Of a stretch of DNA of 64,000 nucleotides, positions 6,493-40,831 are shown one piece after another; position 1 is the stretch's first letter; each line of letters begins with the position of its first letter. Below the pieces are notes generated by a model. That model worked only from the letters and a program-made list of their open reading frames with translations, was not told where the DNA came from and ran no database searches. Where the stretch lies: assembly GCA_004123355.1 (NCBI GenBank), contig SCHM01000004.1, positions 6,289,017-6,353,016 on the forward strand. Direction: 5' to 3'. Source of the stretch: Amphirosellinia nigrospora. Its lineage: Eukaryota; Ascomycota; Sordariomycetes; Xylariales; Xylariaceae. A program made the position numbers and the translations under genes.

Positions 6493-7630
6493 ATGGCGAC
6501 AACTAGTAATTCTAACTTACCAGAATCTATGAGAGCCCAGTTCCTGGATGCCTTCAACACCCCCTATAATCTCCGCTCTGTCCCTCTCCCCGTTTTCAGC
6601 TCGCCCCACGATCTACTTATCAAGGTCGAAGCAGCGTCCTACTGTCATACAGATGCCGTCCTCTCTGCGGGGCAAATGCAGCCCAATCCACCCAGCTTCC
6701 CACATGTGGGATGCCACGAGTTCGCGGGAACTATTGTCGCATTGCCTGACAATTCCTTGTCAGTTTTGAAGATAGGGACAGAGTCGGCGTTCCTGGCCGC
6801 GCATTCCATCCATGCGGGACATGTTTTGAATGTGCTGCCGGACCAACCTCAGCAGATCCCGACGCAGATCTCACCGGATACTCCGTATGCTGTCCAAATT
6901 CTCGTAACAATGGCTTAGATGGCCCTGGGGGCTTCAGAGAATACGCTGTTGTCGACAACCGTCAGATCGCACCCATTCCGAACAACATGACAGCGGTTGA
7001 TACAGCGGTTCTCATGTGCGCCGGTGTTACTATCTTCAATGCCTTGAAGCGGTGCGCTCTCCAGCCTGGCCAGCGCGTTGGTATTGTTGGCTGTGGTGGT
7101 GGACTTGGTCACCTAGGACTGCAATTTGCTACGAAAATGGGTCTCAAGGTACTGGGAGTCGATAATGCTGACGCTCCGCTGCAATTGGCTCAGAATCTCG
7201 AAACGGGAGCTAGGATAGTTGATGCAAGAACACTAGGTGCAACTGAAGTGGCCATTGAACTTGGAACCGAAGACGGGAAGCAAGATAGGGGTGACATGGG
7301 ACTTGACTCAGTCATCATCTTACCAGAGAGTCAAAAAGCTTTTGACTACGGCGTCGGTCTCTTGAGGAATCATGGAAGGTGTGTCGTGGTGTCTTTCCCA
7401 GAAAGAGGCTTCCATGTCTCTGCGCGCGACATCGTCTTTCGGGATGTTTCCATTGTGGGTAGCCTAGTGGGAGTAATAAGACACTGAGGGAAACATTACA
7501 GTTCGCTGCAGAACATGAGGTGAGAGCGGTGATAAGAACATTTCCATTATCAAGACTGAACGAATTGGTGACTGAATATCATAAGGCAGAAGGTGGAAAG
7601 CTTGTCATTGATATGAATTTGCCAGATTAG
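6493..7630 (+). CDS. Zinc-type alcohol dehydrogenase (MDR family)
   Basis: Medium-chain dehydrogenase oxidising or reducing an alcohol/aldehyde with NAD(P). I chose the ATG at 6493 over an in-frame one at 6466 because MATTSNSNLPESMRAQF starts the family block. Catalytic-zinc side: SYCHTD and GCHEFAG. Structural-zinc side: CGTCFEC followed by CCPNS. Rossmann motif GIVGCGGGLGHLGLQFA. The C-terminus reads SNKTLRETLQFAAEHEV and stops at 7628. The single long exon needs two single-base additions, near 6770 (a GGG run, restoring DRVGVPGRAF) and near 7468 (GGG, restoring LVGSNKT). No internal stop substitution is seen, so error or very recent damage is likelier than old decay. Probably acts on a ring-opened hydroxy product of the lactonases (inference). 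Confidence 0.85.
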
Positions 7631-8236: not shown

Positions 8237-8945
8237 ATTGAGGGGTAATAGCTGATCTGTATAACTTGGATTTTCAATGCAGTGTGGCCGGCTCCGTATT
8301 GTGCGTAGCAAACGTTGGTAATTCGTCAATGAAATATCAAAGTAGAATTCTCTACACGCTTTCTGCCGTATGATTTAAGTTGTTATAATTAGGAGCTAAG
8401 GGGATTCTGATGAGGGGATAGTGCATGATTATGCTACAGTTGCATCATATTCTACCGACTCCGCACGCCACATGCCCTCGGCTTTAGGTTGATTGAATGC
8501 TACAGTACTTTATTGGAGCACGTCGTAGGAGACTGAATCCTGGGAACCGGGCACGGGAATTGTTCGATAACGAAAAGCATTCGTTCTTAACCGGACACCA
8601 AGTCTACGATAAGGGTGAGACTCCGTCGATCGGAACTGACCGAGACGAGCATACCTAGGATTATCCTCTATCTCACAATGCTTGTATTCTCAATTAAACA
8701 CACGCGATTGATAAAAGCGATTTCACTGATACAGCAACCTATGACGTCTGAGTAGCTATCAATGTCTTCATGCCACAGTAGCTCAAGGAAAACCCATTGT
8801 ATCAAATAGTGTTCACGATCTTATCACACTTCACTGTCTCAGATCGCCATAGATATCATACGTTCAGTCACTACCTGTTTTCATCTCAGCAATTATTCGG
8901 CCCCCTTTTACGTTCCTCCCTAGGTTATCACATATAGCTCAGACC
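8237..8945. promoter_or_regulatory. Divergent promoter region, CMD-like 1 / MFS transporter
   Basis: Gene-free 0.7 kb between divergent start codons at 8236 and 8946. It must supply both promoters. No recognisable operator. Confidence 0.4.
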
Positions 8946-36550: not shown

Positions 36551-39207
36551 TCATCCGAACATGGATTTCCCAGTTTTCAGGACAGTTGGCATGCCGGAAT
36601 CTTTCATGACCCTAAGTATCTCATCCATAAGTAGGGTTTGGACTTTTTACCCAAAACCCAATAACCCACCACCCATAAAAAGTGGGTGCCATGGGTATTA
36701 AACACCCAAAAAACCAACATTGTTTAAAAAGAATATAAAGCAAAAAGAACATCATTTCTTAGATTTCAGATTAGTACAAAAGATTAGTATATTTTTTTTG
36801 CTGCTAAATTTTGTATGCGTGGGTTTTTTTCCGTGGGTATTACCCATTCAAAAAACCCATGGGTTTTTTTGGGTACCCATTTCCGAACCCTATCCATAAG
36901 GGCAAGGTCCGTACCTACAAAGCTGTTAATAATGGTGTCTGAAAGGGGGAAGTGTAAACAATTCTAACCTGCTGGACTCATGATGGCTAGCGCGAATGGG
37001 ACCGTCTCTTCCTGGTCGGTGACGCGAGAATGATAAGGGAGTTCAGCAACTGCGATAAGTTTCAGAATGGGTTAATTTGTTTACAATCCATGATAAGGTC
37101 TTACTTGGAACTGCAAGAACTGGCTTCCATAACCGGCGCTAAAGCCAGGGCATTGATTCCGTCTTGAGGAGGGCGTTTGAATCTAGGATGTGTTAACTTA
37201 GGCAACCTCAATATGTCGGTGCATGATGGCTCACTTTGGCACTTCGTCGCGATATCTAGTCGTCATGGATTCAAGCGGCATGATGACGAGTGCATTAGAG
37301 TTCTTCCGGTAGAGACTGTCTGATTGAACCATTGCTTGTAAACTTTCATTTTTGCAAAGCCTCTGTCTCTTTCTTCTCGGGAGATACTCTGAGCATATGA
37401 CCTAAATGAAAATTATCAGTAAAATGGGCAACTCTCAGAGAAATGAGTCAATCAAAATCATCAAAAGTTCAGGCTCGACCTCAATGCTCGACTCACCACA
37501 TCCGCTGGTTAGGAGGGGAGACGTATGGTGCACGACCAAATAATTTCCAATGGCGAGCACGAAAATCATCGCAATTATGGTAGGCGTCGTAGCATTGCGC
37601 GTTTGGAGCCTAAGGAACCCATCAGTGTGATCGCTAGAGGGTTGGTATTAAAGGATAGATACTTCGTTAATATAGTGGCCCAGCGATAGACCTTCGGCAT
37701 CTGGTGGGGGAGATTGATCCCAGGTAGCTTCGAACGACAATTCATGGCATTCAATAGACAAGACCAACTTAACTTCTCCACGAAACTTTTAGCAATATCA
37801 ACTTGATTCGGGTCAATAAGGGACCAGTAGTCTATAGGCCAGATGACTGACGTGAACGGCTAACCCATTTTTATATATACATAGACAGTAAAAGGCAAAG
37901 GCACAAACCATCGGTTGTTTCTTGGATCTATCAAGCGACAACCATACACTGCTAAAGTCCCTACATTTCTGTAAATCCCTAGCAAGGACGCCGGCTGTGT
38001 CCCAAGTTCTGAGTACCAAGTCAGCCAAATCTTAATGAGAAATGAAATTATATCTTGCTGGCAAGATGGCTCGATTCCGTCTGGGGGAAGTAGTCCCAAA
38101 CTAGGACGGAGCCCAAAACACCCGCACCAAAGGCAAGGCCTAGTAACGCTACCCCATGCTTTTTCACACAAGGTTTTAGTATCTTCTAAGAGATCTTTGC
38201 CGTACAAAACTTACTGTCGGTTACCGATGGCGATATCGAGCCAGTCGTACGATGCAATAGCAGCTGCGCTTCCAGAACTGCTACCCCCTGGCGATTGGTA
38301 ACCATCGGCACGGGGGTTCCAAGGAGCCTGGTAGTCGATGTACTCAAGGGGCTCCTCCCAATTTCCAAAGGAATTCATCTTTGTCTTCCCAACTATGACC
38401 ATGCCAAGGTCGATAATGCGTTGGACGCACAACGCCGATTCCGTCCTTGGGCCATACGTGTCGTGAAAAGATTTGTTGCCCGCGGATGTTTTGATACCCT
38501 TTAAATCGATATTGTCTTTGATCACTACACGAAACCCTGCAAATGGTGAGATGGCGGCCTTACTGCTCTTGATACGAGAGGGAACAGCGAAGCTGCGAAA
38601 CTGGCTCCCGGGCTTTGGACAGATAAAAGCTCGAATCTGTCGCATGATCTAAGATGATATTAGTTTTCATCTTACGCAGTTGTAGCTTAACCTTACGTCG
38701 CTTTAGGCTTCAGAGTTACCATACAAGTGCCACTGCTGTCATCTATGAGCTTCCAGACATCCCTAAGCTCTTCTCCCCAGCAGACGTAGGGGCCCGGTGA
38801 CAGAAGTGGTTCTCGCAGGAATACGACGCGCTCATTGCCTAGTTGAGCGAGATATTCACGAGCCTTGGGAGAAATTTCGACATCATCCTCAACCGCACCA
38901 TGGAAGACAACGGTTTTCAGAAAAGAAGTGTTGAATACGTCATCGTTGTCGACGTAATCCTTCAAATTCGATCGAACCCAGTCGCCGGATACTTGTAAAC
39001 CCTGGGGAAGCGAGAAGACGGTGATGAGGCCAACGTTCCATAGACTAGGCACAGTCGCTATCTAAGACATCATGTAAGCGAAAAGTAGTGATTCCAAAGA
39101 AAGGCGGCCTTTACCGATGAATTTTTAGGCGCAATGTAATCAGTATCAGATATGGAAAACAAGTGATCATCTCCAGGGTTTGCACTTCTCATTAAATTTA
39201 ATCGCAT
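36551..39207 (-). CDS. Amidase-signature enzyme, last exon split by a MITE
   Basis: Fungal amidase (amidase-signature hydrolase, Ser-Ser-Lys triad) with the usual N-terminal extension. Exons begin 39115-39207 (MRLNLMRSANPG), 38697-39061 and 38215-38648, the last carrying the catalytic-lysine motif VVIKDNIDLKG and the signature SPGGSSSGSAAAIASYDW. Downstream pieces read SVTRPCLWCGCFGLRPS, YWSLIDPNQVDIAKSFV, WKLFGRAPYVSPPNQRMW, LPYHSRVTDQEETVPFALA and GTDLALMD. The natural end (EILRVMKDSG, VKTG-like LKTGKSMFG, stop 36551) lies beyond a 261-bp insertion at 36632-36892. Read through the insert, the protein would end in about 35 foreign residues. Several single-base breaks also occur (for example near 38590). 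Whether the product is active is unknown. Confidence 0.8.
36624..36631. repeat. Target-site duplication, left copy
   Basis: tccataag, identical to 36893-36900 on the other side of the MITE. Confidence 0.8.
36632..36892. mobile_element. hAT-type MITE with 8-bp target-site duplication
   Basis: 261-bp non-coding element. Ends are tagggtttgga (36632-36642) and its near-perfect reverse complement tccgaaccct a (36882-36892), 10 of 11 bases matching. The immediate flanks are identical 8-mers, tccataag at 36624-36631 and 36893-36900. An 8-bp duplication with a TAGGG-type terminus is the hallmark of the hAT superfamily. The interior is built of repeated acccat/atgggt units and carries no coding frame. 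The empty site can be read directly: joining the flanks restores the amidase reading frame. Confidence 0.85.
36893..36900. repeat. Target-site duplication, right copy
   Basis: tccataag, identical to 36624-36631. On the amidase coding strand it reads cttatgga, codons of ALMD. Confidence 0.8.
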
Positions 39208-39760
39208 CTTACTCGCGGTTTGCGAGCAAGTCGCTGGTGGTGGTTATAAGTGAGATGAACTTTGAATGACAAAGTTTGAGAACTCTATTCCACATGGCAA
39301 AGTCGATTCAATATCAGACTTCAGGCAGAAAAGGGAGAATCTTAAGTTGCACAAAATCTTCTCCCTCTGCCAGCCACCTGCGGGGTCAGGTACCTCGATT
39401 GGACCTCTACACAGCGCCACCTCAATTTCGATGTAATGTCTTAGCACCACCGTTATGTTGTTCTGTTGGTGACTTAGCTATACGTCATTCAAGAAGAAAA
39501 GAAATCCTGCCAACGTCAAGTGACAACATCCCTGAGTCAACAAAAGTCTACCCTTATGCGACGGATATACCCTAATGTTGAATAAGCCAATCGACAGTGA
39601 TAGACCTGATCCGTACCATCATTAAATTTACAATCATTTCGGGTCACTAGATTCCACCTTGTCGAAATGAGGTCACGCTCTCGTTGGGTACCGTCTTCGC
39701 GTAGCGAATGACGGAATGGAACATAGAATGTCATGATAAATTAAAATATTAAATATTAGT
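39208..39760. other. Intergenic upstream of the amidase
   Basis: No gene recognised. It grades into a repeat-like region beyond about 39.75 kb. Confidence 0.4.
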
Positions 39761-39790
39761 TAAAATACCCTGTAGCGCCGAGCAAGTCGT

Positions 39791-39832
39791 TATTAAAATA
39801 GAAAGCTTTGCCGGCGAAGCTTTATTTTAATA
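39791..39832. repeat. 42-bp palindrome centred on GCCGGC
   Basis: The left half tattaaaatagaaagctttg and the right half gaagctttattttaata are reverse complements around GCCGGC, except for one mismatch and one missing base. Confidence 0.8.
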
Positions 39833-39836
39833 CGTT

Positions 39837-39868
39837 ATAAATCGAAATGCTAAAAGTACTTCGATTTA
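39837..39868. repeat. Second hairpin directly after the palindrome
   Basis: Arms taaatcgaa and ttcgattta are perfect reverse complements separated by a 13-base loop. Confidence 0.65.
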
Positions 39869-39892
39869 AATGACGAGAATACTCCTAGCTCC

Positions 39893-39940
39893 TAGACCTC
39901 TTATTCCTTAGACCTCTTATTCCCTAGACCTCTTACTCCC
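39893..39940. repeat. 16-bp tandem repeat, three copies
   Basis: Unit tagacctcttattccc, three copies in a row with one or two changes each. Confidence 0.75.
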
Positions 39941-40831
39941 TAAACATTTACCCTTTACGTAAATTTATATATTTAGAGGGCTCCGCCCAGAAAGGTTGGA
40001 CCTCTAAGAACTCGGCCGCCGTCCTTTACAGTCCGGCCTTCGCCCTAGCCGGCCTTTTTATAACGCGTATCGTTAACTATATTAATATAATGCTAGTTTT
40101 ATATTCATAAAATATAGTAGTTATTAGCGACTATATTCGCTATTATAGTACATAAGCTATATAGTTTATTTAAGTGCGAATATGTTATAGTTAATGCTCG
40201 ATTTAAACTTTAACTAATAGGAGGCTTGCAAAGTCCGTATAAGCTAATCAGAGCGTTATAAAAAAATTTATACTTTTAAGGGTTATTATTAGAACTTCTT
40301 AATCTTTACTTTCTTTTATACTTAATTATCGTTGCTAATACGTGTTCGGAAAAATAAAGCTTTCTAATTAGTTAGTTAGCTTTTACATCGTACTAAATAC
40401 ACAGAACATTAATAGGAAAAGTCTATACACGTATGCAAATATTTCTTATCCCTCATAGAGACTATTATAACCCCACTATATGGTAGCTTCCCTATGGAGA
40501 CTATTTAATATATAGGGACTCTCTTTGTCTACATCTTCGTGCGAAAGATTATAGTGGGAGTTTTTGCATATACATGAAGTAGTTAGTGAATTTTTTTTTA
40601 AAAAGAAAAGAAAAAACTAAATTTCCAAAAGTCGCCTACTAGAAATCTCAATTTAGCAAGACCTACGAACTTAGTAGTTTATTACAAAGCACGGCTTATT
40701 AAGTGATTGAAGTCAATAAAGGTAAGTTAGTAGTTCTTTGCTACTCACAACTATGGCTTGAAATATAGTAACTCTCACTTTGAACCAACAAAGAACAACT
40801 CTGCCAACAATCAAAATCAAACAAAGAAACA

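Follow-up and report, generated by a model that had tools for sequence, protein, structure and literature searches.

A non-autonomous element (MITE) of the hAT family, 261 bp long, lies inside the last exon of an amidase gene, and this explanation as a whole, which covers its ends, its subterminal repeats and its 8-bp duplication, is given a probability of almost nine in ten. Taken alone, the insertion is nothing unusual for a MITE; the partner that shares its ends, a hAT element of about 9 kb with two histone H3-like genes, matters more. The transposase of such 9-kb elements would recognise the common ends and would have mobilised the MITE by a cut-and-paste mechanism. The MITE itself probably derives from a relative of the 9-kb element, and the amidase would now end early or without its C-terminal block. 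The window, meaning the whole 64-kb stretch of DNA that was analysed, comes from contig C6 in a genome of 48.1 Mb and 11 contigs. Histone genes, AT-rich repeats that look RIP-mutated and short introns of the GT-AG type indicate a filamentous fungus. The features around the insertion are as follows.

36552..36631, minus strand: C-terminal portion of the last amidase exon, displaced by the insertion and including one copy of the duplication; the original stop TGA lies at 36552-36554
36624..36631: target site duplication, copy 1, TCCATAAG
36632..36892: non-autonomous hAT element (MITE), 261 bp, recognised by inverted ends and duplication, with 22 long copies in the genome including the window copy
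36632..36642, plus strand: left terminal inverted repeat, TAGGGTTTGGA
36769..36791, minus strand: tandem pair of the 10-bp word of the family, TGTACTAATC and a second unit TATACTAATC, 13 bp from start to start
36784..36786, minus strand: in-frame TAA inside the tandem pair, reached when the amidase frame enters the element
36882..36892, minus strand: right terminal inverted repeat, TCCGAACCCTA
36893..36900: target site duplication, copy 2, TCCATAAG
36893..36914, minus strand: 5' portion of the final amidase exon (GTDLALMD), following the last intron
38214..38645, minus strand: amidase exon (Pfam Amidase, E 1.5e-21)

Elements of the hAT superfamily have short terminal inverted repeats that start with CAG or TAG, and their transposases carry catalytic DDE/RW residues. 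The two ends of the window element follow TAGGGTTYGGA and pair at 10 of 11 bp, with one mismatch, and the duplication is identical at 8/8 positions; this re-measurement agrees with the near-perfect 11-bp inverted repeats and the exact 8-bp duplication originally described for an element of 261 bp. When the 64-kb window was scanned for 11-bp inverted pairs with at most one mismatch, 80-600 bp apart and enclosed by a perfect 8-bp direct repeat, two structures were found, at 36632-36892 and at 409-654. The inverted-end structure at 409-654 has the 8-bp simple repeat TATTATTA, is of low complexity and probably arose by chance. A plasmid collection searched with the window MITE gave no match.

A search of the same genome with the window MITE returned 46 matches, 22 of them long (window copy included), and 14 of these 22 have an exact 8-bp duplication. 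Both ends are preserved within two substitutions in 17/22 long copies, which measure 219-343 bp; among these, 12 have exact duplications, four have duplications with one or two differing positions, and in L003 no duplication is seen. Two further copies (L006 and L021) show a one-base deletion in an end each together with exact 8-bp duplications, and two others (L026 and L032) are partial matches only. The original prediction had proposed a genome search for further copies, and their absence, which it named as evidence against it, was not observed. It had also taken the perfect duplication as a sign of a recent insertion. This does not hold, since the best full-length relative of the window MITE is only 90% identical (over 266 aligned bases), and a perfect 8-bp duplication alone does not date the insertion.

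The sequence L013 (C4:9815933-9823368) matches the window MITE at 94% over its right 204 bp, and with a length of 7436 bp and ends with a 7/8 duplication it might be taken for the autonomous parent. This is hardly conceivable, as the insert resembles an LTR retrotransposon (terminal repeats of about 200 bp that are 83% alike, with a 5-bp duplication ATAAC) and contains no open frame of at least 120 amino acids. L013 was ruled out as the parent and is a MITE copy split by a nested, RIP-degraded LTR retrotransposon.

The MITE copies are short, non-coding and numerous, and their ends are common to the transposase-bearing 9-kb elements. MITEs of the hAT superfamily are likewise short, non-coding and present in many copies, with inverted ends starting with TAG, an 8-bp duplication and a partner with a hAT dimerisation domain, and no difference in principle from the window element is seen. 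The first assignment as a hAT-type MITE is borne out by the 8-bp duplication, the TAG-starting ends, the multi-copy family and the full-length elements that carry a hAT transposase between the same ends.

At the insertion site, removal of the element and one duplicate yields an empty site that reads in frame, with GTDLALMD rejoined to EILRVMKDSGMPTVLKTGKSMFG and a stop; the whole rejoined sequence is GTDLALMDEILRVMKDSGMPTVLKTGKSMFG followed by a stop. The location in the last coding exon and the intact frame, both claimed from the start, are confirmed. The occupied site reads GTDLALMD-RVRKWVPKKTHGFFEWVIPTEKNPRIQNLAAKKIY and a stop, the frame running into RVRKWVPKK...KKIY and then into the TAA at 36784-36786, and the last ~24 amidase codons are cut off from the gene by the element. 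An amidase paralogue on C1 ends in TDLILAQLVEDGMRAAGIPTSVKTGASVY and a stop, the counterpart of the block beyond the insertion. Therefore, amidases of this kind do possess the C-terminal block that was displaced, and the case that the original prediction had named as contradicting it, amidases without this block, was not found in the paralogue.

The effect on the protein is less certain than the insertion. In-exon frame breaks occur in the assembly, the amidase included, and several are present both in the only canonical histone H3 gene found (L041, C4:3290684-3291147) and in an actin-related gene (L065, C1:9489327-9490677). The assembly probably carries many one-base deletions. Breaks in such conserved genes call for caution with any frameshift-based claim on this assembly and make the effect of the insertion on the protein uncertain. 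The insertion itself is secure, unlike the exact altered amidase tail. The element-encoded replacement tail proposed originally, with its TAA inside the element, depends on reading frames for which this assembly is no reliable guide.

The same caution applies to the idea that the amidase was already a pseudogene before the insertion, which would then have been without consequence. By eye, at least two frame changes of the amidase fall within stretches that are open in a single frame in the paralogue (54% identity over 79 residues), and an irregular appearance is also noted where the catalytic serine should lie. However, one-base breaks of the same kind in the canonical H3 and actin-related genes indicate that those of the amidase are probably sequencing errors, and an earlier loss of the gene is considered unlikely; the amidase as a proven pseudogene was dropped after these control genes showed like frame breaks. 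The MITE as an intron of the amidase was also considered. The sense strand offers the tandem pair and a downstream AG, but the frame to LMDEIL meets stops, and this reading is not favoured.

The ends of the MITE recur about 9 kb apart, in elements of 9023, 9022 and 8998 bp, which supply the full-length hAT with the same termini that the original prediction had suggested looking for, including a hAT transposase gene. All three have the same ends and an exact 8-bp duplication.

C4:911075-920097: 9-kb element, 9023 bp
C9:763980-773001: 9-kb element, 9022 bp
C9:143025-152022: 9-kb element, 8998 bp

Two of the copies align to the third (L009) at 99.8 and 99.6%, and the three differ at 24 places in 9033 aligned columns, mostly by gaps (44/53 differing columns). 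Their GC content of 42% and TA/AT ratio of 1.05 give no sign of repeat-induced point mutation (RIP). Five relatives of 8.8-9.0 kb (L012, L016, L033, L034 and L035, on C5, C7, C1 and C4) have a GC content of 11-17% and TA/AT ratios of 1.22-1.31, a composition typical of RIP, and are heavily mutated, older relatives. The window MITE matches L009 over bases 1-50 (88%) and 203-248 (93%); for the longer MITEs L007 and L023, the match covers the last 113 bases of the partner, at 88-89%. For the interior of about 115 bp, no convincing alignment to the 9-kb element was obtained in the four MITEs compared, except for the tandem pair, and the 9-kb element may therefore not be the direct ancestor of the MITE.

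Four genes were found in the 9-kb element, namely a hAT transposase, two histone H3-like genes (H3A and H3B) and a gene of unassigned function (X). The transposase model from copy L010 (959 aa) matches Dimer_Tnp_hAT (PF05699) with an E value of 3.6e-10 and 39.9 bits at a cut-off of 21.4. A genome search with PF00125 gave 16 matches, two per 9-kb copy. H3B lies on the plus strand and encodes 468 aa in eight exons, with a Pfam Histone match (E 1.2e-19) and histone H3 chains as the best match among solved structures (7.8e-21). Its long basic N-terminal part is without ARTKQTARKS, the canonical histone H3 tail. H3A, on the minus strand, has a Histone match over the fold (61.7 bits in two copies and 42 in the third), and its N-terminal exon is without a confident model. 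Each of the two genes needs an intron within the histone fold. X, on the minus strand and 496 aa long, gives no Pfam match above cut-off, and no solved structure matches it with an E value better than 1. In the genome, X has 37 matches; 36 of them fall within, or between, fragments of elements related to the 9-kb one, and the remaining one (C4:4913247) lies 3.3 kb from such a fragment. An initial view of the right-hand gene of the element as a C2H2 zinc-finger protein was dropped once the histone fold was seen. Elsewhere, a degraded histone H3-like copy (L059/L046, C9:388467-388610) lies on a small contig; hAT ends and the tandem word are absent from the surrounding 5 kb.

In the assembly, none of the 9-kb copies has open frames for all four genes at once. 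An open transposase frame is present only in L010, one for H3B in L009 and L011 and one for the whole of X in L009 and L010, and H3A is broken in L009. These breaks are blamed on assembly errors and, as the H3 and actin-related control genes are also broken, they are not taken as proof of decay in single copies, although some may reflect real decay.

The tandem pair within the MITE belongs to an array that runs through the 9-kb element. There, 37 units of TGTACTAATC with at most one mismatch were counted, compared with a mean of 0.72 and a maximum of four in 200 first-order random sequences. All but one (36/37) stand in pairs or triples with one or two bases between units, corresponding to 11-12 bp from start to start; in the MITEs, the spacing is looser (12-14 bp). 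Modelled coding sequence accounts for 70% of the element, and none of the 37 units overlaps it. Introns were called by eye from GT-AG sites near units and from frame continuity, so this split between coding and noncoding parts is not fully independent of the word and is partly circular. Throughout the genome, the exact arrangement TGTACTAAT, 0-8 bases, TGTACTAAT occurs 63 times, always in this hAT family, where each of the three 9-kb copies contributes 18 matches and the MITEs together nine; a whole-genome control with the reversed word gave 0 matches. Single units number 153 genome-wide against 84 for the reversed word, which means that the tandem is private to the family and the single word is not. 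Pairs counted in a RIP-tolerant way are kept in each of the five RIPed relatives (13-16 per element).

In the literature covered, with most subscription journals lying outside the search, no description of the TGTACTAATC word or of such an array was found. Among the papers listed for the letters TGTACTAATC, no title concerned transposons, and among those listed for branch points, tandem repeats and hAT, none concerned branch sites in transposons.

The word contains TACTAAT, and the tandem might represent nothing but doubled splice branch sites, multiplied in short introns to secure splicing. A pair or triple is present in 13/17 modelled introns and has the sense orientation in 10 of them. In nine of them, 7-13 bases separate the last TACTAAT from the end of the intron, and in the tenth, which has a TACTAAC of its own, the distance is 28. 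The pair directly before the start codon of X (2005-2025) may sit in a 5' UTR intron. By eye, a CTAAT site is still present in three of the four introns without a pair, which also speaks for branch sites. However, the pairs are antisense in 3/13 introns, further pairs are found near both ends and between genes (252-273, 6519-6539 and 8720-8741), and the exact tandem occurs 0 times outside the family in 48 Mb, though introns of the host also need branch sites. An exclusive role in splicing is possible but on the doubtful side.

Binding of the transposase to the pairs as a requirement for mobility is improbable. Near the ends of the 9-kb element, one pair does lie at 252-273 counted from the left and another at 282-303 counted from the right, and a recognisable pair is retained in 12/17 MITE copies. 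Nevertheless, it is absent from the other five, most pairs are internal and scattered across the 9 kb, and the ends of the element bear palindromic repeats of their own (AAACCCATGGGTTT and TGGGTACCCA).

The likeliest role of the array, held tentatively and at a little under an even chance, is that of a recognition site for a DNA-binding protein encoded by the element, with the sense copies in introns serving also as branch sites. Such a binding array accounts for a tandem that is confined to the family, for units set roughly one helical turn apart, and for the copies that are antisense or lie close to the ends. Three points weigh against it: the sense copies in introns are placed as a plain branch site would be, the spacing in MITEs is looser than in the 9-kb element, and 5/17 MITEs are without a recognisable pair.

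Transposons of the hAT type with H3-like genes are already known from Pyrenophora tritici-repentis (PMC3538342) and from six Mycosphaerellaceae (PMC6710886), the only two papers that were on topic by title and abstract in a literature search on transposons with histone genes. According to Manning et al. 2013, the H3L hAT transduplication of Pyrenophora exists as a long form of 5.6 kb in 10 copies and a short form of 2.3 kb in 16 copies with one H3L gene, and the role of the histone was left open (PMC3538342). By this description, the elements resemble those found here in having near-identical copies and in enclosing, between their ends, a hAT transposase, an H3-like gene and a further gene without a known function, whereas the present elements differ in their length of 9.0 kb, in having two H3-like genes and in being found as three near-identical copies. 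For the Mycosphaerellaceae, including Pseudocercospora fijiensis, Dhillon et al. 2019 describe H3-carrying hAT elements that are known as relics ruined by RIP (PMC6710886). Those of P. fijiensis measure 9.5-9.9 kb and have an 8-bp duplication and one to two H3-like sequences each; RIP has inactivated every extra H3-like copy, the H3 gene originally captured was deduced to have had no introns, and no other domains and no direct or inverted repeats were identified (PMC6710886). As far as this description goes, the hAT type, the 8-bp duplication, the similar size, the H3-like sequences and the RIP-mutated copies are shared, whereas the three RIP-free copies, the intron-bearing H3-like genes, a readable third gene and the private array are not (PMC6710886). 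The RIP-free copies, the introns of the H3-like genes, the third gene and the private tandem word are what is new here, and the near-identical copies make genes, introns and cis sites readable.

An analogy was seen in the VANDAL21 transposon of Arabidopsis. Hosaka et al. 2017 describe a protein, VANC21, whose binding site is a short motif present as tandem copies in introns and in other noncoding sequence (PMC5735166), and both binding and the loss of silent marks were demonstrated in Arabidopsis (PMC5735166; Sasaki et al. 2023, PMC10398659). As described there, VANDAL21 likewise combines an element-private short motif, in tandem in noncoding parts, with extra genes besides the transposase, and its motif also occurs singly elsewhere (PMC5735166). 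The family-enriched word in the noncoding parts of the 9-kb element (63/63 tandem matches in the family and 0/37 units in coding sequence) shows this feature of the VANC type. In contrast to VANDAL21, the present element is a fungal hAT with a putative binding array, and X is without a Pfam match above cut-off.

By this analogy, the 9-kb hAT could be a self-protecting chromatin package, in which X or the transposase would bind the tandem TGTACTAATC and H3-like histones would be placed there, keeping the copies out of H3K9-marked heterochromatin and RIP. This is speculative and quite unlikely as it stands. If true, fungi would have their own equivalent of VANC anti-silencing in plants, and the MITEs would keep one docking pair. 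As the layout of the private motif parallels a proven plant anti-silencing system, the question why transposons carry histones becomes testable.

Two minor observations concern the surroundings of these elements. In the window, positions 39740-40600 are AT-rich with short repeats like tagacctcttattcc and perhaps represent a RIP-degraded repeat. C9, a contig of only 1.33 Mb, holds two of the three 9-kb elements without RIP, and the small contigs C7-C11 may represent accessory chromosomes with less frequent exposure to RIP.
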